Source of the DNA: a virus | Virus record (IMG/VR): IMGVR_UViG_3300047551_002821 | Span: 1-35,422 of that record | Reading direction: 5' to 3' (one strand) | DNA: 35,422 nt | Shown: one piece after another, positions 109 through 33,745 of the stretch | Layout: each line of letters opens with the position of its first letter | Numbering within the stretch: position 1 is the stretch's first letter | Program-made: the position numbers and the translations under genes | The notes under the pieces: model-generated | What the model was told of the DNA's origin: nothing | The model's input: the letters and a program-made list of their open reading frames with translations, nothing else | Database searches by the model: none

Positions 109-151
109 CATAATTAAATACTAGACATTATGGCACATCTAGGACTCAATT

Positions 152-1825
152 ATGGAATCAAGATATCAAGAACTGGAAAAATTAATCTCACGATTTGAAC
201 GTACGATACCCGATACTGAAGAATACAATAAAAGATTAGAGGAAGAATTAGAACTTGTAGCAAGACTTGGTTTTGCCAAGCATTTTCATAGAGTAAGAGA
301 AATATTAGATCTTACCAACGACATTCCACATATAACACGAGGATCGGCAGGCAGTAGTTTAATTTGCTACTTAATGGGCATAGGCGATGTTGACCCTGTG
401 GCAGAAAACATTCCGTTAAGTAGGTTTATGAATCCACATAGGGATGACTTACCCGATATAGACCTAGATTTTCCACACTGGCAACAGGAAACAGTTATGA
501 ATCGTATATTCAAAAACTGGCCAGGCCGCAGTGCTCGTGTAAGCAACTATGTGACTTATAAAGAAAAATCTGCTCGTAGGGAAGCAGCGAAACGATTTGG
601 AGCCAAAGGTCGTTTACCACGAAATATTGATTTTGAAAAAATTATACCTGAATTCGTTGAAGATGCAGAACGACTAACAAAAAAATTATTGGGTAAAAAA
701 CGCTGTATTAGCAAACATTGTGGCGGAATTTTAATTTTCGACAGAAGTGTACCTAAAAGTTTGATTAACGGCGAAAACCAAATACTGTTAGACAAATACG
801 AAATTGAAGATTTGGAACACTTTAAGATAGATATCTTAGCTAATCGCGGTCTCAGTCAACTCTGGGAAATTGATCAAAGACAGTTAACTGATTATCCAGA
901 GACTGATTCTGCTACCAGTGAGCTACTGTGCAGGGGAGAGATACTAGGTGTCACTCAGGCCGAAAGTCCGGCCATGCGTAGATTATTCAGAGCAATTAAA
1001 CCTCAGAGTCGAAGCGATTGTGTGTTGGCCACAGCACTAGTCAGACCGGTGGCTACAATGGGACGGCGACGTGCCAGTGCTTTTCAAGATTGGACTAAAG
1101 ATAATTTCAATGATACCATTGTGTTTGAAGATGATGCTATAAGATTAATAGCAGATATACTAGGTTGTAATCAATACGAAGCAGACATGTGGCGTAGAGC
1201 ATTTGCTAAAAAGAATGAAGAAAAAATATTCGAGTTTATGGAACTAATAGGAGATCATCCTGACAAACATACAGTTCTTGAGGCCTTACGCGAACTTAGT
1301 CATTTTGGACTTTGTCGCGCTCATGCTATCAATTTGGGTAGATTAATATGGGCATTGGCCTACCAAAAGGCACATAATCCAAAAAAGTTTTGGCAGGCTG
1401 CATTAAAGCATTGTCATGGTAGTTACTCAAAATGGGTCTACTACCATGAAGCTAAATTAGCAGGAAGTATTCTAGCTGGTACTTCTATTATTGAAGGAGA
1501 AGAAATTCGTGATCTGGCTGAACACGGATATTGGCGAAGTAAAGATTTTTTACCTGTGTGTCGAGAAATTCGTCGTCCCGGACAAGTAGAGTTTTGCGGA
1601 TTGGTAGCTAACTACAGGGTATTCAAAGCTAGACCTAAAGAATATATAACTTTTGTCACTGTTGGCACAGGTAATAATAGATATCTTGATGTCATAATTC
1701 CACACGCTATATCTTTTCACGATCATCCAATTTTAGTTGGAGTCGGCCGTTTAGACTACAAAAATAATACAGAATGTGTTAAAGTTAAGAGCCATCGTAG
1801 ATTAAAGATTGAGGACTTATTATGA
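152..1825 (+). CDS. Compact DnaE-like (family C) DNA polymerase III alpha subunit, no PHP domain
   Basis: A 557-aa protein recognisable as the core of bacterial replicative polymerase DnaE. Visible landmarks are the RGSAGSS loop (about 63-69), matching the RGSGAGS motif; PDIDLDF (101-107), whose D102 and D104 align with the catalytic aspartate pair; SKHCGGILI (about 188-196), matching HAGGVVI; FKID (D227), matching the third catalytic aspartate; GVTQAES (about 266-272), matching GVFQLES; a helical segment with FGLCRAHA (about 385-392), matching FNKSHA; and a C-terminal OB-fold-like stretch (about 478-520). Normal DnaE is about twice as long, and the N-terminal PHP domain is absent. It probably synthesises phage DNA or repairs it. 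The ATG at 152 follows a weak AGGA, and the gene ends in an ATGA overlap with the next gene. Family assignment is firm; whether it is the main replicase is inference. Confidence 0.88.
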   Translation: MESRYQELEKLISRFERTIPDTEEYNKRLEEELELVARLGFAKHFHRVREILDLTNDIPHITRGSAGSSLICYLMGIGDVDPVAENIPLSRFMNPHRDDLPDIDLDFPHWQQETVMNRIFKNWPGRSARVSNYVTYKEKSARREAAKRFGAKGRLPRNIDFEKIIPEFVEDAERLTKKLLGKKRCISKHCGGILIFDRSVPKSLINGENQILLDKYEIEDLEHFKIDILANRGLSQLWEIDQRQLTDYPETDSATSELLCRGEILGVTQAESPAMRRLFRAIKPQSRSDCVLATALVRPVATMGRRRASAFQDWTKDNFNDTIVFEDDAIRLIADILGCNQYEADMWRRAFAKKNEEKIFEFMELIGDHPDKHTVLEALRELSHFGLCRAHAINLGRLIWALAYQKAHNPKKFWQAALKHCHGSYSKWVYYHEAKLAGSILAGTSIIEGEEIRDLAEHGYWRSKDFLPVCREIRRPGQVEFCGLVANYRVFKARPKEYITFVTVGTGNNRYLDVIIPHAISFHDHPILVGVGRLDYKNNTECVKVKSHRRLKIEDLL

Positions 1826-2184: not shown

Positions 2185-4407
2185 ATGTTAGCAGACCCAG
2201 ACGGAACAGAGAATACCAGTTCTAATCCGCATATTCAAGACATTATTGCACAAGCATTTGCCTCACAAACACGCCGATCATTCCTAAAAAAAGGTGGATC
2301 GGCTTTTTTTACGGCTGCTGCGGGTGCTACATTGGCAGGTTGTGCCACCGGTGACGATGACATATTGACCCTGCCCGCTCAGCTATCCTTCGCTGCTGTG
2401 GCTAAAAATACAGCGGATAAGATTACTCTACCACCGGGATATCAATACACAGTTGTTCATGCTACCGGAGATCGATTGGTAAGTAGCCTTCCGGCCTACA
2501 GCAACCGAGGGACCGAAACAGATGATTGGTCAAAGCGTGTGGGTGACCACCATGATGGCGTAGAACTATTCCATCTTGACAGCGCAGGTAAAAGAACTAC
2601 CACAATGACTGATCGTGTATTACTAGGTATGAATCACGAAAGTTCAGCAGACGCACATTTCTTCCACCCAAATGGACAGACCAGCAATGGTGTAAGTGGT
2701 AAGAAATATGATCAGTTTGGTAGTTGGGACTTGGGCGTTCGTCCAGGACTTGAAGTTCTTAAAGAAATCAATCATCACGGTGTCAGTATCGTAGAAGCCA
2801 ACAAGGGATCATCAGGTTGGACCTATAAGTTAGACAGTGCTTTCAATCGCCGTGTCACAGCACAGACTCCAGTAAAGATTGCTGGTCCTGCTGCTGAAAT
2901 CAACAATATTCGAGCACTAATGGCTACCCGGTATGACCCCACTGGTGCTACCAGCCGTGGCACACTAAACAATTGTGGAACAGGTATTACTCCCTGGGGA
3001 ACAATGCTGACCTGTGAAGAAAACTGGGCTGTATATTTTAGTATGCCCAAGGGCAGTGCCGGTCCTGATAGTCGTATGGTTCAGACTCGTGCTCGTTATG
3101 GTGTTCGCAATGCTGCCATTGCTGCTACTGCTACGACCAGCAATTCGCAGGGTTGGCATACACCAACAGACTTGCCGGACACAGAGCATCGTTTCAGTCG
3201 CTGGGATATTAGCATCAAGGGTGCCACTGAAAAAGACGACTTCCGCAATGAGCCACATACATTTGGCTACAATGTAGAAATCGATCCTGCCAACCCCACC
3301 AGCCAACCAGTTAAACGTGTTTCAATGGGTCGTTTCGCACACGAGGCTGCTGTATATGGTCGTTTAGTAGCAGGGCAACCAGTAGTATTTTACATGGGCT
3401 GCGATAGTCGTAATGAATACATCTATAAATTTGTCAGTGCTCAACCTTGGAATCCAGCAGATGCTACAGGTGGATTAGCCGCTGGTGACAAATACCTAAA
3501 CGAAGGTCGGTTGTATGTGGCAAAGTTTAACGATGATGGCACCGGTTCGTGGATTGAATTATCAATCACTAATCCTCTAATCGCAGGATATGCCACATTC
3601 AAGTTCAACAATCAAGCAGAAATCTTTGTATTCACTCGTATTGCTGCTGATGCTGTTGGTGCTACTAAAATGGATCGTCCAGAATGGGGTGCTGTGAATC
3701 CTGCTAACGGTGAAGTTTACTTTGCTCTAACCAATAACAGTGCTGCTAATCGCACACCTACTACAGTTAATGCTGCCAATCCTCGGAGTTATGCTGATCC
3801 AGATGGATTAGCAAGAACAGGTAATCCTAACGGACATATTATTCGTTGGCGTGAAACCGCCACAGGATTCCAGTGGGATATCTTTGTATTTGGTTCAGAA
3901 GAAGATAACGCTCAAAGCAATGTCAGCAAACTGACTGCCAATAACAGTTTTAGTAGCCCAGATGGACTATGGTTCTCAAAAGCCACAGGTCTATGCTGGA
4001 TTCAAACTGACGACGGTGCCTACACCGACGAGGTTCATAATCAACTGTTGGTGGCTATCCCCGGACAGGTTGGTGATGGAAAAGCAGTCACAGTGAATAA
4101 TAGCCTAAGTGGTGCTACCGGTACACAGAATACCTTTGTGGGTGCTGAGTTAGGAGAGACCAAGTTGCGTAGGTTTATGACTGGTCCTGCTGGGTGCGAA
4201 ATTACTGGTATCGCTGAAACAGCAGATGGTCGTGCTATCTTTGTCAATGTTCAACACCCAGGTGAAGATACAACCGCAGCGTTTTGGAGTAGTGGTGCTT
4301 CTCCACAAAGTCAATGGCCAGGTAATGCTAATTATGGCGTAACTGGTCGTCCTCGTTCAGCCACAATTTGTATCACAAAGGTTGACGGCGGCATTATAGG
4401 TCTGTAA
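2185..4407 (+). CDS. phoX: PhoX-family alkaline phosphatase (DUF839), Tat lipoprotein
   Basis: A 740-aa homologue of PhoX, the calcium/iron-dependent periplasmic alkaline phosphatase that releases phosphate from organic phosphate esters. The N-terminus has a twin-arginine motif (RRSFLKKG, from R30), a hydrophobic stretch, and a lipobox LAGC with Cys at about 53, so export by Tat and lipid anchoring are expected. Family hallmarks are NHESS, TPWGTMLTCEEN, a GYNVEIDP...VKRVSMGRFAHEA block, RPEWGAVNPANGEVYFALTNN split over a PEWGAVNP core, and DGLWFSKATG. Length is normal for the family. It has a strong ribosome-binding site (AAGGAGA) and a Pho box upstream, so induction under phosphate starvation is likely. 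The gene is less AT-rich than the rest of the window, suggesting a bacterial origin. Confidence 0.93.
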   Translation: MLADPDGTENTSSNPHIQDIIAQAFASQTRRSFLKKGGSAFFTAAAGATLAGCATGDDDILTLPAQLSFAAVAKNTADKITLPPGYQYTVVHATGDRLVSSLPAYSNRGTETDDWSKRVGDHHDGVELFHLDSAGKRTTTMTDRVLLGMNHESSADAHFFHPNGQTSNGVSGKKYDQFGSWDLGVRPGLEVLKEINHHGVSIVEANKGSSGWTYKLDSAFNRRVTAQTPVKIAGPAAEINNIRALMATRYDPTGATSRGTLNNCGTGITPWGTMLTCEENWAVYFSMPKGSAGPDSRMVQTRARYGVRNAAIAATATTSNSQGWHTPTDLPDTEHRFSRWDISIKGATEKDDFRNEPHTFGYNVEIDPANPTSQPVKRVSMGRFAHEAAVYGRLVAGQPVVFYMGCDSRNEYIYKFVSAQPWNPADATGGLAAGDKYLNEGRLYVAKFNDDGTGSWIELSITNPLIAGYATFKFNNQAEIFVFTRIAADAVGATKMDRPEWGAVNPANGEVYFALTNNSAANRTPTTVNAANPRSYADPDGLARTGNPNGHIIRWRETATGFQWDIFVFGSEEDNAQSNVSKLTANNSFSSPDGLWFSKATGLCWIQTDDGAYTDEVHNQLLVAIPGQVGDGKAVTVNNSLSGATGTQNTFVGAELGETKLRRFMTGPAGCEITGIAETADGRAIFVNVQHPGEDTTAAFWSSGASPQSQWPGNANYGVTGRPRSATICITKVDGGIIGL

Positions 4408-4412
4408 TATAT

Positions 4413-4432
4413 AGGGGGCTAGTCCCCCTTTT
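4413..4432 (+). terminator. Probable rho-independent terminator after phoX
   Basis: AGGGGG (4413-4418) and CCCCCT (4424-4429) form a 6-bp GC-rich stem with a 5-base loop, followed by a short T run (4429-4432). It lies between phoX and pstS. No separate Pho box is visible before pstS, so this may be a partial terminator that tunes read-through rather than a full stop. Confidence 0.65.
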
Positions 4433-4457
4433 CATTTAACACACAAAGGAAAAATTA

Positions 4458-5468
4458 ATGAAAAAATTCTTAATGGCCATTGCGGCCACAATATTTGCTG
4501 CTACAGTTCAAGCAGCAGAAATCACAGGAGCGGGTGCTACTTTCCCATATCCTATCTATGCCAAGTGGGCTGAAGCCTATCATAAGGCCACTGGCAATAC
4601 ACTAAACTATCAAAGCATTGGATCAAGTGGCGGCATTCGTCAGATCAATAACAAAACTGTCACATTTGGTGCCAGTGATGCTCCAGTAAAAGGCGAAGAC
4701 CTTGACAAACTTGGCCAGGTTCAATTTCCTGCTATCATTGGCGGCACTGTACCTGTTATTAATCTTGATGGGTTCAAGCCCGGCGAACTTCGCATAACAG
4801 GTCCAGTAATGGCTGAAGTTTTTATGGGCAATATCCTTAAATGGAATGACCCAAAATTAGCGGCATTAAATCCAGGTAAGAAATTACCAGACCTTAATAT
4901 CACAGTGGTTCATCGTGCCGATGGTTCGGGCACTACATTTAACTGGACTGACTACTTGACCGTAATCAGCCCTGAATGGGAAAAAAGGGTAGGTCGTGGT
5001 GCTGCTGTTAAATGGCCTGCTACAAGTTCAGTTGGTGGAAAAGGCAACGAAGGTGTTGCTGCCAATGTAAATAGAATAAAAGGTAGCATTGGTTATGTTG
5101 AGTACGCCTATGTTAAGAAAAATAACATGAACTTTATGTTGCTACAGAACCGGGCTGGAAACTTTGTTGCCCCGGATGACCTAACATTTGCTGCTGCGGC
5201 TGCTGATGCTGATTGGTTCTCAGTTCCAGGAATGGGCTTGAGTATTGTAAACCAAGCGGGCAAAGATACTTGGCCGGTCACAACAGCAAGTTTTATTATT
5301 ATGTACAAAGATCCTGCTGACAAAAAGGCCAGTCAGGAAGTTATCAAGTTTTTTGACTGGTCATTTAAGAACGGTGCTAAATTAAGTGCTGAACTTGACT
5401 ATGTTCATCTTCCTACAGTATTACAGGATCAAATTCGCACACGAGTTTGGTCACAGATCAAACACTGA
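4458..5468 (+). CDS. pstS: PstS periplasmic phosphate-binding protein
   Basis: A 336-aa phosphate ABC-transporter substrate-binding protein. It has a Sec signal peptide (KKFLMAIAATIFAATVQA, cleavage before AEITGAGATFP), then the conserved GAGATFPYPIYAKWAEAY, IGSSGGIRQI, FGASDAPV, HRADGSGTTFNWTDYL and GSIGYVEYAY blocks, which carry the Ser, Asp, Arg and Thr residues that bind phosphate. The closest remembered relatives are proteobacterial (E. coli-type) PstS proteins. The PstCAB partners are absent from the window, so it would feed the host transporter. A good AAGGA ribosome-binding site precedes the ATG. pstS is a known auxiliary gene of marine phages. It lies between two Pho-box units and may be reached by read-through from phoX. 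Confidence 0.95.
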   Translation: MKKFLMAIAATIFAATVQAAEITGAGATFPYPIYAKWAEAYHKATGNTLNYQSIGSSGGIRQINNKTVTFGASDAPVKGEDLDKLGQVQFPAIIGGTVPVINLDGFKPGELRITGPVMAEVFMGNILKWNDPKLAALNPGKKLPDLNITVVHRADGSGTTFNWTDYLTVISPEWEKRVGRGAAVKWPATSSVGGKGNEGVAANVNRIKGSIGYVEYAYVKKNNMNFMLLQNRAGNFVAPDDLTFAAAAADADWFSVPGMGLSIVNQAGKDTWPVTTASFIIMYKDPADKKASQEVIKFFDWSFKNGAKLSAELDYVHLPTVLQDQIRTRVWSQIKH

Positions 5469-9359: not shown

Positions 9360-12300
9360 TTAAGCATTTAAAATATTTACCGTATTACTTGTAGCAATAA
9401 TAGTACCACTAATACTGCCTGTTCTAATATTTAAAATACTAGTTTCAGTGCTTTCTGATGCGGCATCTAAAGCCACAGTTCTAGTTATTGTCGCTGTATT
9501 ATTACTAACAACAAAACTACCCGATGTGTTTCCACCAACCCAATCACTGCTACTAGTATTACCACTATCAGTCCAGTAAAGTGTTGTGCCATTTGAAATA
9601 TTAGTAGTTGTAACAGTCCATGTAATTGTATTGCCTTCATTGACTGTTGTAGAAGAGGGTGTAACTAACACCGTTATTGTTTTATTTAAAATATTTACTG
9701 TATTACTTGTAGCAATAATAGTACCACTAGTACTGACTGTTCTAATATTTAAAATACTAGTTTCAGTGCTTTCTGAGTTTAAATCTAAACTTACAGTTCT
9801 AGTAATTATCGCTGTATTATTAACAACATCAAAACTGCCTGATGTAGCACCACCAACCCAATCACTGCTACTAGTATTACCACTATCAGTCCAGTAAAGT
9901 CTGGTACCATCTGCCATATTATTAGTTATTACATACCAAGTAATTGTATCGCCTTCACTAACTGTAGTTCTACTAGGATAAACTGTATTAGCAGATATTG
10001 TGCTTTTTGAAACGGCGGAACTGGCTATTGCTTTAGAAAAGTTGCCACTACTTGTTCGTACAGTGCCAATTGTTCTAGGCTCAGTATGTACTAAATTTAA
10101 CCAACCTATACCATCACCACTGCCAGTATGTGAAAATGCGCTATCATTTGTAACTATATTTAGATTATTGTCTCGAACAACAAAATTTTTATTGCCTGGG
10201 CCTGTTGTTACAATCTCAGATTGAGCATTATTTCTTGCTACAACCCCGGTATCAAAAATAGTATCATTACCGCCGTTTAGTGTAACTATACTATTACCAA
10301 ATTCTGCATTACCACAAATAATTTTTCCTACAGTTAGATTTTTTGAATTTGTAATTAATCTAGTATTTGCTGTATCATCAAATTGAATCTTATTTAAATA
10401 AAGATAACGAGATGTTGGATAAATAGTTATAGTACTATTGCTTGAAGAAATATTTTGTATAGTAATTGGATTACTGGTTGTGTTCATATCATATGAACTA
10501 CTGATTATAAAATTATTTTGACTACTTGCACCAGGATCAAAAATAAGATTTAATAGTTGTAAACCGTATTGCTGGTTATTGATCCCGGCTTCTTCAAAAA
10601 AATGACTTACTTTAATAGGATTACTTTGCCCAGCACCAGGATTATTTGTTCTACGCAAAAATCTTACACGATGTGGATTCTGTGTAGTTGAAGCATCAAG
10701 TTGCACAGTATTTTCCAATAGTAAATTAGGCCCTGTGCCAGCTCCACGACTACTTGTACTGTTAAATCGTTCGATACTTGTCCAGGTTGTGTTTCCAAAG
10801 AATAAAGGATTTAATGTTTCTGTATTTAATAAACGTAAATATCCAGATCCTTGCCAATAATAAGTACTAGGATCGGTATTATTCCAATAGTTAGTATAAA
10901 TCGTTCCATCGACGTTAAAAGTTGTTCCTTGAACTATGATTTGGTCACAATAAAGTTGATATGGTACTATAACAGTAGTATTTTGAGTAGTCAAAGTTTT
11001 TATCCAAATCTGAGGCTCTAATAATTTAGGGCTTGCACCGCTCATAGTAGCTGTATTTGGTCCCAGTAAAGCTGTGTATATAACTTGAGTTTGATCAGGA
11101 TTATTGCCTGCAAAATTAATAGTAACACCAGAAAATGGTGTATAATACGTACCTAATTGATAGTTACCATAAACAGTAAGAGTACCTGTAGTATTTTTTA
11201 TTCCATAATAGGGTTGTAGAGTTCGATAAACAAGAGTTCCAGCCAATGTAACAGGAACATTATACGCGATTAAATTTAAAGCATTACTTTCTGTTTGACC
11301 ATTTATAGTAACAGTTACATTCTCTGTGCTAATAAAATCACCAGCTCCGCCTATAACTATACCGCCACTATCATTAGTTTGTCCAATAACTGTAGTTGTG
11401 GCTAAATTGCAACTTATACTTGCAGGATAACCAAAAAAAATCTGGTTATAATTAAAGTTTAAAGTTCTAGGCACAGTAGCGTTAGTTATATCAAATCTGT
11501 CTACTGTCAAATTACTATTCACATTAAGTGTTCCACGACCATCAAATAACAATCTATTAGCTGTGCCTGTACCCGCTAACCCTACGCCATTAAGATTATA
11601 AACACAATTATCACTAGTACCAGCGCAACTTATACCACCTGTTGTACTAGTAAAATAACCAGTAAGATTATAGATGGCATTACCTGAAAAAGTTAATGAT
11701 GCTGGTCGAGTTTGTAAACCATCTAAATTATTTAGGTCAATTGTTCCACCAGTGCCTGTTGTTACTAGTGTGGTAATATGTCCACCACTGCTTAAAGTGG
11801 CAGTGTAGTCGGGTCCTGGATTTAGGGTCAACGTGGTTGTTCTAATGGAATTTATGGTACAGGTGCCTAACACAGTAACACTGGGTATTACTGTGGGTGT
11901 TTCTATGTTAAATTGCTGGATCAACGCTCCTGGATTAGCAACAGCAGGAAAACTAATGGTTAAGCCTGTAAAAGGTCCTGTGCCGCTTCCATCGCCATCG
12001 CCAACAGAAACTACGCCTCTAATATTAACTGTTATTGCGCTAGTTGTACTTAAACCAGCACCGGTATAAATATAGAGATTTCTTATCGCACTGCCAGTAG
12101 TAAATGTCTTACTGCCTCTCCAGTGTACGTCAAAATTATTGTCGGCAGTGGCACTCAATCCACTGGTGTTAATGGTGCCTGTGCCCTGTATATCAAAACC
12201 ACCAGGATTTTCAATAGTTAAATTTTGACTGGTACTACCAATGGTAACGGTTCTAACTAGCGGAATAATACATTGATTAAAATTAATAGCTCTTGGATTA

Positions 12301-15002
12301 GTATAAGTACTAGTAAAATTACCTATAATATAATTAGTTGGATCATTAAAAAGAAGGGTGCCAGCTACAAAATCAAGAGTATTTCGACATTGGAACCCGC
12401 TGAGATTATGCTGTGTACCCGTTGCTTTAAACGTAAAAGTTAGATCATTGGTACCATCTACGCCACCTAAGTTCGCTCCACTTATAACTATGGTGCTGCC
12501 ATCTGCAGGAGCGGTGCCTGAAGTGAGAACCGCAGTAGTAACACCAAAATATACAACACCAGTACCAGTTTTTGTTACAGAAAAAAGTGCATCGTTACCA
12601 CCACCTGTACTTGATTTAACTGGCACATTGGTTCTTGTTTGAGCAGTGTTCACTGCGGTACCGCTAATGCCTACAGGTGTACTACCTGCTGATTGGCCAC
12701 TGGCTGTAACCTGTGTGGCAGCAGTAATGGTAAATGTTAGGTCATTGGTACCATCTACACCATCTAAATTGGCACCACTTAGAGTAATAGTGTCACCTAC
12801 GGCATAACCACTGCCTAGGGCAGCAACAGTAATTCCACTATATGCTGTGCCAGTACCAGTTTTAGCTATATTGAAAGTTGCCCCAGTACCACTACCACTA
12901 GTAGATTTAACAGGCACTTGAAATTTTGTTATGGGTGCAGCTACACTGGTTCCTGTGATAGGAGTCCAAGTTGCAGTAAAAGGATTAGCAGTAGTAACGC
13001 TCTGATAATTGTAAGTTGTTCCAGCATCGCCACTGCATGTAACAGTTTGAGCATAGTTTACATTTAAATTAAATATACCAGTATTTTTGGTTAAACTTAA
13101 TGTTCGTACATAAGCGTATAGATTAAAAGTTTGATCGTCGTTTAAAGATGCATCAAGGGTGTTCAATACACCTAAACGATAATTGGCATTTGCCAGCGAA
13201 CTAGCATTTTGTAAAATTGTGAAAGTGCCGCCAGTAGAGGAAGCAATGGTTGCTGTAAGATTAGTTAAATTAAATGCTGCGCCTTGTTCATCCCAAGTAA
13301 TTGATGAATTTGAATTGATTAAGTTTACGGTTTGGGCTGCGGTAAAATTAACTGGCCCATAAAACTCAAGACTGCGTAGGTTGCATCCAGTAATAGAAGC
13401 ATTGAGCGTAGTATTATTAAGTGCTTGAACTCTAAATCTTATTGCATAAGTACCTTGCCAACTACCAGTTGTACAAGTGCCAGTAGTCTGTAACCAAAAC
13501 CCGCCTTCGTTAATATATGAGTCTGATGTACACACTGTGTTATTTAATGTGGCAATTGAAAGAGTACCCGTGCCGTTAATTCCAGCCCTATGATTACCAT
13601 TTATATAAATCCAGTAACCATTAAACTGAAAAAGTCTTTGATTGCCGCTAGCACCAGTTCCAGTGGCGCTGGTAAATACTCTACAGTACATTGATGTATC
13701 GTAAAGAGTTAATTCACCAAAGTTAAAATTAACTGTACCCAATGTATCAAAACTAGAAACAATGAGGTGTACGGTACTAGCATTTCCGCCAAATGTATAT
13801 GCTGATGTAGTACTATTATCATAAAAATTTGTATGTAAATATGTAGATCCTGTACCGTTTGCGGTATATGTTAATGTACTAGTAGAACGTATTATGTTTT
13901 CATAATAACTGCTATTATTTCCACTACATACAACTGTAAATGCTGCTGTTTGCCATGCTGCTCCTGTAGTATCGTTACCATCAATCCATAAATAATAAGT
14001 TGATGTATTACTGCTCAGTGTAAATGTCACCGCTCTAGCGTAGACAAAATAAAATGTTGGCGTACCACTTAGTGGATTTTGAGTTGTATAACTTGTTACC
14101 TGTGCCAGCCAATTTACGGTTTGTGTTACGCCAGTTCTACCTATGATAACAGGATTAGTTGTTGTTACATTATTATAACTTACAGGTGTGCCAGTCAGAC
14201 TGCCCCAAATCTGCGGTGTACTAGTTCCTGCAAAATTACCGTTGACTTCTAAATCTTCAAATTGCCCAGTTACAGTATAATTTCTATTATTGCCTAATTG
14301 AAAAGTAGGAGGTACACCATTGAATGTTGCACCAGCAGTGTAATTACTAGCAATACCGCCACCCGTTACCACTATGGTTGCTGTACCACTACTAGGCTGA
14401 ATATAAGCTGCACCACTTCTAGCAAATTTAGTCCAAGCGGTGCCCACAGCAGTGGTGTGACTGGTATTCCATAAGGTTCCCGAAGATCCTGTAACATAAA
14501 TGGCACCATTAGCTAGATCAATAGTTCTATCTGTATTTCCACTGGCAGTAAATACTCTACAAGTTACAGTATAACCTTGAGTATATAAATTACCATTTGT
14601 GACGGTTAGTGTGGCAGTGGCAGTTCCTGTGACATTCCATGCAGCACCTAGAGTAAGATTTGTACCATTAGTTTTATTGATGGTGCAACCGGCAAAACTG
14701 TTTGTGCCTAAATTTAGCGTTTGGCTATTACCGCCTGTAAAATTTACTGTCATGGTAGTCATATTCAGAGTACCACTATTATTAATGTCACCTTGTATGG
14801 TAAATATACCAGTACCACTAAATGTTACCGTGCCGCTGTTGACAGTGAGATTTCTTACCGTTCTGGCAGTGGTACTGACATTGGGTGTAGCCGTACCAGT
14901 AAAAACTATATCGTCAGCAGCGGCTGGAAGGCCTGTAGGCGACCAATTTGTTGTTGTAGCATATAAACCACCGGCTGCTCCGATCCAAGTGTAAGTTGCC
15001 AT
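9360..15002 (-). CDS. Giant beta-rich adhesin / tail-fibre protein (1880 aa)
   Basis: A 1880-aa protein without a signal peptide, so presumably assembled on the virion. The N-terminus (TYTWIGAAGGLYATTTNWSP) and many following stretches such as VRNLTVNSGTVTFSGTG are typical of secreted beta-helix/adhesin repeats rich in Asn, Thr, Gly and Ser. Around residues 700-870 it carries two copies of a domain ending in GDTITLSGANL..VDGTNDLTFT, also found in the neighbouring 1183-aa fibre. The C-terminal 212 residues are two tandem 106-aa Ig-like (calx-beta-like) domains, each with EGxTITW, LYWTDSGNTSSSDWVGG and ESTETSILNIRT. Probable role: binding of host surface polymers. It belongs to a run of fibre genes on this strand. 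Exact position in the particle is unknown. Confidence 0.8.
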   Translation of the reverse strand: MATYTWIGAAGGLYATTTNWSPTGLPAAADDIVFTGTATPNVSTTARTVRNLTVNSGTVTFSGTGIFTIQGDINNSGTLNMTTMTVNFTGGNSQTLNLGTNSFAGCTINKTNGTNLTLGAAWNVTGTATATLTVTNGNLYTQGYTVTCRVFTASGNTDRTIDLANGAIYVTGSSGTLWNTSHTTAVGTAWTKFARSGAAYIQPSSGTATIVVTGGGIASNYTAGATFNGVPPTFQLGNNRNYTVTGQFEDLEVNGNFAGTSTPQIWGSLTGTPVSYNNVTTTNPVIIGRTGVTQTVNWLAQVTSYTTQNPLSGTPTFYFVYARAVTFTLSSNTSTYYLWIDGNDTTGAAWQTAAFTVVCSGNNSSYYENIIRSTSTLTYTANGTGSTYLHTNFYDNSTTSAYTFGGNASTVHLIVSSFDTLGTVNFNFGELTLYDTSMYCRVFTSATGTGASGNQRLFQFNGYWIYINGNHRAGINGTGTLSIATLNNTVCTSDSYINEGGFWLQTTGTCTTGSWQGTYAIRFRVQALNNTTLNASITGCNLRSLEFYGPVNFTAAQTVNLINSNSSITWDEQGAAFNLTNLTATIASSTGGTFTILQNASSLANANYRLGVLNTLDASLNDDQTFNLYAYVRTLSLTKNTGIFNLNVNYAQTVTCSGDAGTTYNYQSVTTANPFTATWTPITGTSVAAPITKFQVPVKSTSGSGTGATFNIAKTGTGTAYSGITVAALGSGYAVGDTITLSGANLDGVDGTNDLTFTITAATQVTASGQSAGSTPVGISGTAVNTAQTRTNVPVKSSTGGGNDALFSVTKTGTGVVYFGVTTAVLTSGTAPADGSTIVISGANLGGVDGTNDLTFTFKATGTQHNLSGFQCRNTLDFVAGTLLFNDPTNYIIGNFTSTYTNPRAINFNQCIIPLVRTVTIGSTSQNLTIENPGGFDIQGTGTINTSGLSATADNNFDVHWRGSKTFTTGSAIRNLYIYTGAGLSTTSAITVNIRGVVSVGDGDGSGTGPFTGLTISFPAVANPGALIQQFNIETPTVIPSVTVLGTCTINSIRTTTLTLNPGPDYTATLSSGGHITTLVTTGTGGTIDLNNLDGLQTRPASLTFSGNAIYNLTGYFTSTTGGISCAGTSDNCVYNLNGVGLAGTGTANRLLFDGRGTLNVNSNLTVDRFDITNATVPRTLNFNYNQIFFGYPASISCNLATTTVIGQTNDSGGIVIGGAGDFISTENVTVTINGQTESNALNLIAYNVPVTLAGTLVYRTLQPYYGIKNTTGTLTVYGNYQLGTYYTPFSGVTINFAGNNPDQTQVIYTALLGPNTATMSGASPKLLEPQIWIKTLTTQNTTVIVPYQLYCDQIIVQGTTFNVDGTIYTNYWNNTDPSTYYWQGSGYLRLLNTETLNPLFFGNTTWTSIERFNSTSSRGAGTGPNLLLENTVQLDASTTQNPHRVRFLRRTNNPGAGQSNPIKVSHFFEEAGINNQQYGLQLLNLIFDPGASSQNNFIISSSYDMNTTSNPITIQNISSSNSTITIYPTSRYLYLNKIQFDDTANTRLITNSKNLTVGKIICGNAEFGNSIVTLNGGNDTIFDTGVVARNNAQSEIVTTGPGNKNFVVRDNNLNIVTNDSAFSHTGSGDGIGWLNLVHTEPRTIGTVRTSSGNFSKAIASSAVSKSTISANTVYPSRTTVSEGDTITWYVITNNMADGTRLYWTDSGNTSSSDWVGGATSGSFDVVNNTAIITRTVSLDLNSESTETSILNIRTVSTSGTIIATSNTVNILNKTITVLVTPSSTTVNEGNTITWTVTTTNISNGTTLYWTDSGNTSSSDWVGGNTSGSFVVSNNTATITRTVALDAASESTETSILNIRTGSISGTIIATSNTVNILNA
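9373..10000 (-). repeat. 318-bp tandem duplication encoding the adhesin's Ig-like domains
   Basis: Two adjacent copies with a 318-bp period (106 codons); for example the segment starting ATATTTAC at 9373 returns at 9691. Long stretches are nearly identical at the DNA level (the tracts encoding WTDSGNTSSSDWVGG and ESTETSILNIRT), indicating a recent duplication or continuing recombination between copies. Confidence 0.85.
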
Positions 15003-15216: not shown

Positions 15217-18507
<3,291 letters not shown>

Positions 18508-31293: not shown

Positions 31294-31532
31294 TGTACCA
31301 CCCATTACTGCCAGACCTTGGTGAGTTTACCGACGATGAGTTAATGAAAAAATACAATGAATTAAACACTAAATGGGGGCAAGCTAACAGAGCAGGCACG
31401 GTCAGTGTCTTACAACAAATGGCAACTGTTTTGGAGTGTTATCGTATTGAAATACGCAGACGTCAAGAAAAACTGTTACAGGAAGTAAGTAGTCGTAATC
31501 CATCATTTAAAAATATTATTGATATCAAATGA
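31293..31532 (+). CDS. Small helical protein of unknown function
   Basis: A 79-aa protein coupled to mazG (TGATG at 31291-31295) with AAGGAG upstream. The sequence is largely helical and charged (FTDDELMKKYNELNTKWGQA, LECYRIEIRRRQEKLLQEV), like the small coiled-coil proteins frequent in T4-like phages. It overlaps the next gene by ATGA. No function recognised. Confidence 0.72.
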   Translation: MYHPLLPDLGEFTDDELMKKYNELNTKWGQANRAGTVSVLQQMATVLECYRIEIRRRQEKLLQEVSSRNPSFKNIIDIK

Positions 31533-32044
31533 AGTTTGATCAATACGGGCAACCATATTGTAACGAATCGGATCTAGTAGATCTACTTTACCAACAACCG
31601 TCGGTTAATATTAAAGATTTTGTCGTTGACTGTCCCAACAGGTACAATCAAAGCGTCAAAGAGTTACATTTAGATTGGCCATTGTTATCGAAATATGTAG
31701 CAAATACTCAGCCATTGGCAGAGTTCGACCAACAACAGCAAAGTGAGTGGTTTATGCCTGAAGAATATAAACAGCTTGATATAGCTAAATGGCTGTTAGA
31801 TCTTTGTAAAAGTCAAGATGAGTTACAAAGAGTCGGTGAAGAATTGCTATTATTCCAGGAAAGAAATCTATTTCCGTTACTGTGTTATCTTAAATATCTA
31901 GTAGATACCATGCGCGATCATAATATTGTTTGGGGTTTAGGGCGTGGTAGTAGCGTAGCTAGTTATGTATTATTTTTAATTGGAGTTCATAAAATTAATA
32001 GTATGTACTTTGATTTAGACATACAAGAATTTTTGAAAGGTTAA
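31529..32044 (+). CDS. DnaE-like fragment ending before the catalytic aspartates
   Basis: A 171-aa protein. Residues about 105-171 match the part of DnaE that precedes the active site: the long helix (QDELQRVGEELLLFQERNLF, PLLCYLKYLVDTMRDHNIVWG), the loop LGRGSSVASYVLFLIGVHKI, equivalent to PGRGSGAGSLVAYALGI, and FDLDIQEFLKG, equivalent to DLLFERFLN. The protein then stops, exactly where the PDxDxDF catalytic strand would begin, so it cannot be a polymerase alone. It differs from the 557-aa DnaE-like protein (152-1825), which has its own copy of this region. It starts in an ATGA overlap and sits upstream of the clamp-loader genes. It may be an accessory or regulatory replication protein. Confidence 0.7.
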   Translation: MKFDQYGQPYCNESDLVDLLYQQPSVNIKDFVVDCPNRYNQSVKELHLDWPLLSKYVANTQPLAEFDQQQQSEWFMPEEYKQLDIAKWLLDLCKSQDELQRVGEELLLFQERNLFPLLCYLKYLVDTMRDHNIVWGLGRGSSVASYVLFLIGVHKINSMYFDLDIQEFLKG

Positions 32045-32803: not shown

Positions 32804-33745
32804 ATGTTTTTGAATACTCTCTGGGTAGAGAAGTATCGTCCTAAAGAACTGGTTGACTATGTTTTTACTAACAGTGACACCAAGGATTTAGTAGACCATT
32901 GGTTGAAAGAAAAAAGCATTCCGCATATATTATTGCATGGTCCAGCTGGAACTGGAAAAACCACACTGGCTCGTTTACTAATCAGCAATTTAAAATGTGA
33001 TCCAGTGGATGTTCTACAGGTAAATGGCAGTAAAGAAGGTAGGAAAATTGATTGGCTACGTGACAAACTAGACGTATTCTGTCAAACAATGTCTTTCGGA
33101 GAAAGTGGTTTCAAAATTGTTATGATTGATGAGGCCGACTATTTGAGTAAAGACAGTGTACAACCTGCTCTGCGTAATTTAATGGAAGATTATGCAGGTA
33201 ATGTTCGATTTATTCTGACCTGCAATTACCCTAATAGACTGATACCTCCTCTACGTAGTCGATGTCAAGAATTACAGGTCAATCAACCCAATCAAGAAGA
33301 CTTTGTACGCCGTGTAGCTAACATTCTAGATCGAGAAAATGTCAGTTATGACGATATGAACTTGGTTCAATATGTATTAGCAACCTATCCGGACATGCGA
33401 AAGTGTTTGAACTTGATCCAATCCAATGTCATTAATCATAAATTGGTTACAGCAGATAACGGTAATTCTTCCACAAAAGACTTCAGACTTGATGCAGTTC
33501 GTCTCATGCAAGAGGGTCGTGTAAGAGAAGCTCGTCAATTGATCTGCGATCAAGTTAGAACAGAAGATGTGGAAGAAGTATTTCGTTGGGCTTATGATAA
33601 TCTCGAACTTTGGAGCAAGACCGACGAAGGTCAAGACGAAGCAATTAAAATTATTCGTCGTGGATTGGTCAATAATACCAGTTGTAGCGACGTGGAAATA
33701 AATCTCAGTGCAACATTAACCGAACTTATTACAATTGGAAAATAA
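32804..33745 (+). CDS. Sliding-clamp loader ATPase subunit (T4 gp44-like)
   Basis: A 313-aa AAA+ ATPase of the RFC-small-subunit/gp44 type. Landmarks: WVEKYRPKELVDYVF (8-21), Walker A GPAGTGKTT (46-54), Walker B MIDEADYLS (about 107-115), sensor 1 LTCNYPNRL (about 138-146) and the SRC arginine-finger motif (152-154), then a sensor 2/lid region (YPDMRKCLNLIQS) and a C-terminal collar domain. In T4 four gp44 subunits plus one gp62 load the gp45 clamp onto DNA. The gene has its own promoter and is followed directly by a gp62-like gene, as in T4. The clamp itself is not in this window. Confidence 0.93.
   Translation: MFLNTLWVEKYRPKELVDYVFTNSDTKDLVDHWLKEKSIPHILLHGPAGTGKTTLARLLISNLKCDPVDVLQVNGSKEGRKIDWLRDKLDVFCQTMSFGESGFKIVMIDEADYLSKDSVQPALRNLMEDYAGNVRFILTCNYPNRLIPPLRSRCQELQVNQPNQEDFVRRVANILDRENVSYDDMNLVQYVLATYPDMRKCLNLIQSNVINHKLVTADNGNSSTKDFRLDAVRLMQEGRVREARQLICDQVRTEDVEEVFRWAYDNLELWSKTDEGQDEAIKIIRRGLVNNTSCSDVEINLSATLTELITIGK

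Follow-up and report, generated by a model that had tools for sequence, protein, structure and literature searches.

The 35,422-nt stretch of viral DNA analysed here (hereafter the window) carries on its forward strand, at positions 152–1825, an ORF with an ATG start that codes for a half-length family-C (DnaE-type) DNA polymerase of 557 aa, recognised by Pfam, by alignment and in a structural model. It is an intact polymerase core that lacks the PHP domain, most of the β-binding region and the τ-binding tail of Pol III α. The reading we favour, held with about even confidence on sequence evidence, is that of an active, stripped-down accessory polymerase, made late in infection, associated with the product of the adjoining gene and engaged in gap filling or lesion bypass rather than acting as the replicase. 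As far as we have found, it is an undescribed single-chain natural family-C polymerase, PHP-free and half the usual size; our literature search, with subscription journals mostly outside its coverage, gave no account of an unsplit half-length PHP-less enzyme of this family.

Pfam assigns residues 13–230 to DNA_pol3_alpha (2e-38) and residues 244–363 to DNA_pol3_finger (2e-14), with no match to a PHP domain in the protein. The palm comprises residues about 15–110 and 185–235, the thumb about 110–180 and the fingers about 240–435, followed by a short linker and a C-terminal OB fold (residues about 470–557). Aligned with Escherichia coli DnaE, the protein starts at the point where the PHP domain ends, retains palm, thumb and shortened fingers to about residue 435, skips most of the β-binding region (the helix-hairpin-helix repeats and the QADMF clamp motif) before the OB fold, and ends where the τ-binding tail would begin. 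A preliminary description of this DNA had recognised a half-length DnaE without PHP domain, and this holds, although its account of the missing parts was incomplete, as most of the β-binding region and the τ-binding tail are also absent. The catalytic aspartates that it named (D102, D104, and D227) correspond to D401, D403, and D555 of E. coli and are invariant across the alignments made; these three and R91, K225, R298, and R348 agree with both DnaE1 and ImuC. Alterations were noted in the fingers, at the QEQ and RPGP stretches. The AlphaFold2 model is of moderate confidence only (mean pLDDT 69), and with it Foldseek retrieved solved structures of the DnaE of Mycobacterium tuberculosis, Thermus, and E. 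coli, then PolC (best E 3e-18), and also OB folds; the predicted structure thus bears out the OB fold proposed earlier. A KL.D[LIV] ending is conserved throughout the family, and we do not claim it as a C-terminal clamp peptide because it resembles the last strand of the OB fold.

The Pol-β-like palm, the three catalytic aspartates, the thumb and the fingers place the protein within the family-C superfamily. It differs from replicative DnaE1, which is defined by an N-terminal PHP domain and by an internal β-clamp-binding region with a τ-binding C-terminal domain, and from PolC, as the OB fold is C-terminal instead of N-terminal and there is no embedded DnaQ exonuclease.

The open frame around the gene spans 560 codons, with an in-frame stop just 5′ of the start, so that there is no concealed N-terminal domain. 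One scan of viral contigs provided 145 relatives, and a profile scan raised the number of viral contigs with a relative to at least 297. Detailed reading of 80 relatives gave lengths of about 553–560 aa throughout, except for copies cut by contig edges, and dN/dS values of 0.017–0.059 in ten pairs indicate strong purifying selection. A truncated or frameshifted gene is ruled out by the upstream stop, the constant length of the relatives and these dN/dS values. Supply of the PHP domain by a separate gene was also rejected, since no PHP match appeared in ten phage records (the control search was positive in 14 of 14 genomes). Among bacteria and archaea, a single genome scan retrieved only relatives of 25–29% identity, nearly all of them longer and with an N-terminal PHP region; the 557-aa family therefore appears to be restricted to phages, and the same result speaks against a recent transfer from the host. 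The only named relative with the short architecture belongs to the uncultured 484-kb phage LR756508.1, and this homologue, used alone as query, gave no matches.

The polymerase stop overlaps, in an ATGA, the start of a second forward-strand gene (1822–2112) that encodes an acidic α/β protein of 96 aa (pI 5.1). A partner of about 100 aa follows the polymerase in at least 76 of 81 loci (75 by clustering and one more by search), and in four of the remaining five the contig ends too soon to judge. The 4-nt overlap is found in 40 of the 75 clustered loci, and the partner is retained even in 11 loci where inserted DNA separates it from the polymerase. The next most common neighbour of the polymerase occurs in 19 loci only, which indicates that polymerase and partner travel as a pair through varied genomic contexts. 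Among these contexts, one locus (L042, 9258–9692) has a rubrerythrin gene immediately upstream of the polymerase, on the opposite strand, and similar-looking genes are present in two others (L018 and L016). The partners are acidic (pI about 5–6) α/β proteins with a model pLDDT of 87, and neither PDB, Pfam nor the named phages gave a confident match or an informative fold. An assignment to Imm32 was discarded (best 4e-4, in only 10 of 33 members, the window protein being under the cut-off). The tight linkage leads us to take the partner as a probable dedicated subunit or regulator of the polymerase; LR756508 has no detectable partner of this size.

The window is a genome fragment and contains no family-B polymerase, so that the check for a gene 43 equivalent could be carried out only in relatives. 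PF00136 matched long ORFs (889–912 aa) in G001 (337 kb) and G002 (320 kb), the two longest contigs with the 557-aa polymerase gene, and also in G004 and in G007, whose protein combines a polymerase domain with an exonuclease domain. LR756508 also encodes a family-B polymerase, and 16 loci have the family-B gene on the opposite strand, about 3 kb upstream of the 557-aa gene. G001 and G002 have local genes in common with the window (glycosyltransferase and metallophosphoesterase clusters, and PstS in G002). As to the other contents of the window, a PhoX alkaline phosphatase and a PstS-like phosphate-binding protein (2185–5468) represent phosphate-acquisition genes, also seen in relatives (L002, a 118-kb contig among those closest to the window), and an ORF of 1880 aa in the tail-gene region (9360–15002) has no PHROG match. 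Y-family translesion polymerases were absent from the eight records searched, which leaves a translesion niche open.

A second DnaE-derived protein is encoded at the far end of the window. This protein of 171 aa (31529–32044, forward strand) aligns with the initial portion of the DnaE palm and no further; it corresponds to the N-terminal (NTP-binding) unit of a split minimal Pol III and reveals a further family-C system in this phage. In group-2.2 jumbo phages, Iyer et al. (2021; PMC7824862) reported a minimal Pol III whose N- and C-terminal parts are separate proteins, for which they proposed synthesis of one strand or repair, and our 171-aa protein fits the N-terminal half of their system. 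The order of this fragment, a small ORF, a GroES-like gene and the clamp loader is maintained, at times interrupted by additional small genes, in jumbo phages from four host genera, namely MIJ3 (Pseudomonas), Phosso (Sinorhizobium), 121Q (a coliphage), and Atu_ph07 (Agrobacterium). These phages also have the C-terminal half with its DIDID and K-D motifs, the break point lying just before the catalytic DxD, and the 557-aa gene is absent from all four. C-terminal units of about 192–206 aa with the same motifs were located in G001 (17469–18050), G002 (125013–125591), and G004 (126153–126722; loci L176–L178), genomes which carry the 557-aa enzyme as well. The mate of the window's unit is not within the 35 kb. 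We rejected the 171-aa protein as a missing half of the 557-aa enzyme, since it duplicates residues 2–95 and has a C-terminal mate of its own elsewhere. G001 and G002 thus encode three polymerases (family B, split family C, and unsplit half-length family C) and, as the relatives carry family B and the split Pol III and the window the split N-terminal unit, the 557-aa enzyme is a third, unsplit polymerase.

Some indication of timing is provided by the leader of the gene. ATAAATA, situated about 31–40 nt 5′ of the start codon, is common to the polymerase leaders, and the window has the variant ATTAAATA (113–120, forward strand) 39 nt before the start. ATAAATA was found 10–60 nt before the start in 45 of 61 distinct polymerase leaders and in 41 of 941 other genes (p about 2e-40, Fisher, a value that is too small because related phages were treated as independent). 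None of 12 PolB leaders had it, a weak contrast given that PolB is usually inside an operon. Its occurrences in these loci peak 0–45 nt upstream of genes and are nearly absent inside them, as expected of a promoter. The same sequence precedes structural genes of the jumbo phage CBB, where it was assigned computationally as a probable late promoter and likened to that of T4 (PMC5259590). The motif, a variant in the window copy, suggests that the polymerase gene is preceded by a T4-type late promoter. It also stands ahead of a phage isocitrate lyase gene in another locus (L026, 3090–4385; PF00463, 2.5e-104). Ahead of the ATG, many polymerase leaders of L002–L081 (113–151 in the window) also have in common a stretch TTA(T/A)GGCA ... 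AGGCA, which is seldom found in other parts of these loci and may be a leader element or a ribosome-binding context.

Under the reading that we favour, the enzyme retains the core for template and nucleotide binding together with an OB fold for single-stranded DNA. Gone are the PHP domain, which provides a nuclease and a docking site for the proofreader, the greater part of the region that binds the sliding clamp, and the tail for the clamp loader. With such losses it should synthesise short patches, do so without proofreading, and accept templates of poor quality, and the loss of these domains suggests low fidelity or low processivity. It would be co-translated, and probably form a complex, with the acidic protein of about 100 aa. 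A T4-type late promoter suggests production while genomes are being recombined, resolved and packaged, and the most likely task would be to fill gaps and to bypass lesions in phage DNA already replicated, bulk replication being left to the family-B polymerase. The preliminary description had mentioned a specialised repair polymerase as one option, and on present sequence evidence this appears to be the best fit.

Among the alternatives, the one that survives best, which we still consider unlikely, is that the enzyme works in replication beside the family-B polymerase, for instance by extending lagging-strand primers before a handover. In Bacillus, DnaE3 extends primers and hands over to PolC. 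The co-occurrence with family B agrees with such a role, as does the suggestion of Iyer et al. (PMC7824862) for the split form, although the late-type motif and the lack of a conserved linkage to primase, helicase or clamp loader count against it. We give a smaller chance to a deliberately mutagenic analogue of ImuC/DnaE2 that would diversify the phage genome. The top NCBIfam score is that of the error-prone DnaE2 model, the proofreading domain is absent and a sister relation to ImuC was not rejected (p 0.22); however, this score is 164 bits against a PRK05672 cut-off of 939, the LR756508 homologue scores best with DnaE1, none of the eight records has a Y-family gene, and the tree does not join the 557-aa clade with ImuC. 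Comparison with reference operons also revealed no ImuA/ImuB-like (Y-family) conserved neighbour at these loci, and a DnaE2/ImuC identity is therefore unsupported by score, gene neighbours and tree alike.

It seems rather improbable that virions carry the 557-aa protein for action on the entering DNA when the next infection begins, an idea with which the late-type motif, shared with the CBB structural proteins, would be compatible. Very improbable is the replicase, or a one-strand replicase, in a hybrid replisome with a T4-type clamp loader, as the preliminary description had envisaged. The family-C core is indeed intact, and a T4 gp44-type clamp loader of 313 aa (32804–33745, forward strand; phrog_168, 3.5e-76) confirms that a minimal family-C enzyme occurs here in a T4-like phage with such a loader. 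However, the loader is not beside the polymerase, as had been stated, but 31 kb away, adjoining the 171-aa DnaE-derived unit (a PF02916 search for the T4-type clamp matched no control). The clamp-binding region is mostly gone, the τ tail is absent, the promoter motif is of late type, and the relatives searched at greatest length and LR756508 have a family-B polymerase, which takes away the support for a replicase role and leaves the family assignment unaffected. Least probable of all is a structural or regulatory remnant without polymerase activity, for which the altered QEQ and RPGP stretches might speak, against the invariance of the three aspartates, the nucleotide-binding residues and the whole core and a dN/dS below 0.06.

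In a broader and more tentative picture, to which we give clearly less credence than to the accessory role itself, some T4-like jumbo phages would use three polymerases, the unsplit one being a late, two-subunit enzyme with a dedicated partner of about 100 aa. Its task would be the repair or completion of genomes during packaging or, if the virion carries it, the mending of incoming DNA. If this were true, there would be a separate late-phase step of DNA synthesis not known in T4. The enzyme brings to three the polymerases of a phage group in which two had been recognised, makes the need of a phage for a late polymerase a directly testable question, and shows how small a part of Pol III α can persist under strong selection.

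In comparison with known systems, the 557-aa enzyme has in common with bacterial DnaE1 and DnaE2 (ImuC) the palm-thumb-fingers core and the OB fold, at roughly 22–29% identity in our searches, but has half their length, no PHP domain, a mostly lost clamp-binding region and no τ tail. The broader tree gave the 557-aa clade no firm placement among DnaE1 and DnaE2; it stands on long branches, apart from DnaE1, ImuC and the full-length phage DnaE. The latter (in Streptomyces and Mycobacterium C1 phages, Pbunavirus, Wifcevirus, and Andromedavirus) are also phage-encoded family-C polymerases, of 931–1274 aa in the annotated examples examined, and those included in the tree do not group with the 557-aa clade. 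The short DnaE of Aminicenantes and Acidobacteriota (L138–L151, about 811–867 aa) resemble the enzyme in their shortened C-terminus, but keep an N-terminal region aligning with PHP and lack OB fold and tail where aligned; they are weakly supported neighbours of the 557-aa clade in the tree, possibly by long-branch attraction.

Much closer is the homologue of LR756508.1 (574 aa), with the same architecture over nearly its full length, about 40% identity and the same catalytic residues, although, unlike G001 and G002, no split Pol III was found in this phage. The split minimal Pol III of group-2.2 jumbo phages (PMC7824862) is, like the 557-aa enzyme, phage-specific, devoid of PHP and coexistent with a family-B polymerase in T4-like jumbo phages. 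It is made up of two chains of about 171 and 195 aa, which lack a thumb and have next to no fingers, whereas the enzyme described here is a single chain with thumb, fingers and OB fold that occurs in addition to the split form. The two form separate clades (100/100 each), and their common grouping has been neither demonstrated nor rejected (p 0.36). The 557-aa polymerase offers an unsplit form for comparison with the split minimal Pol III, which bears on how the latter arose.
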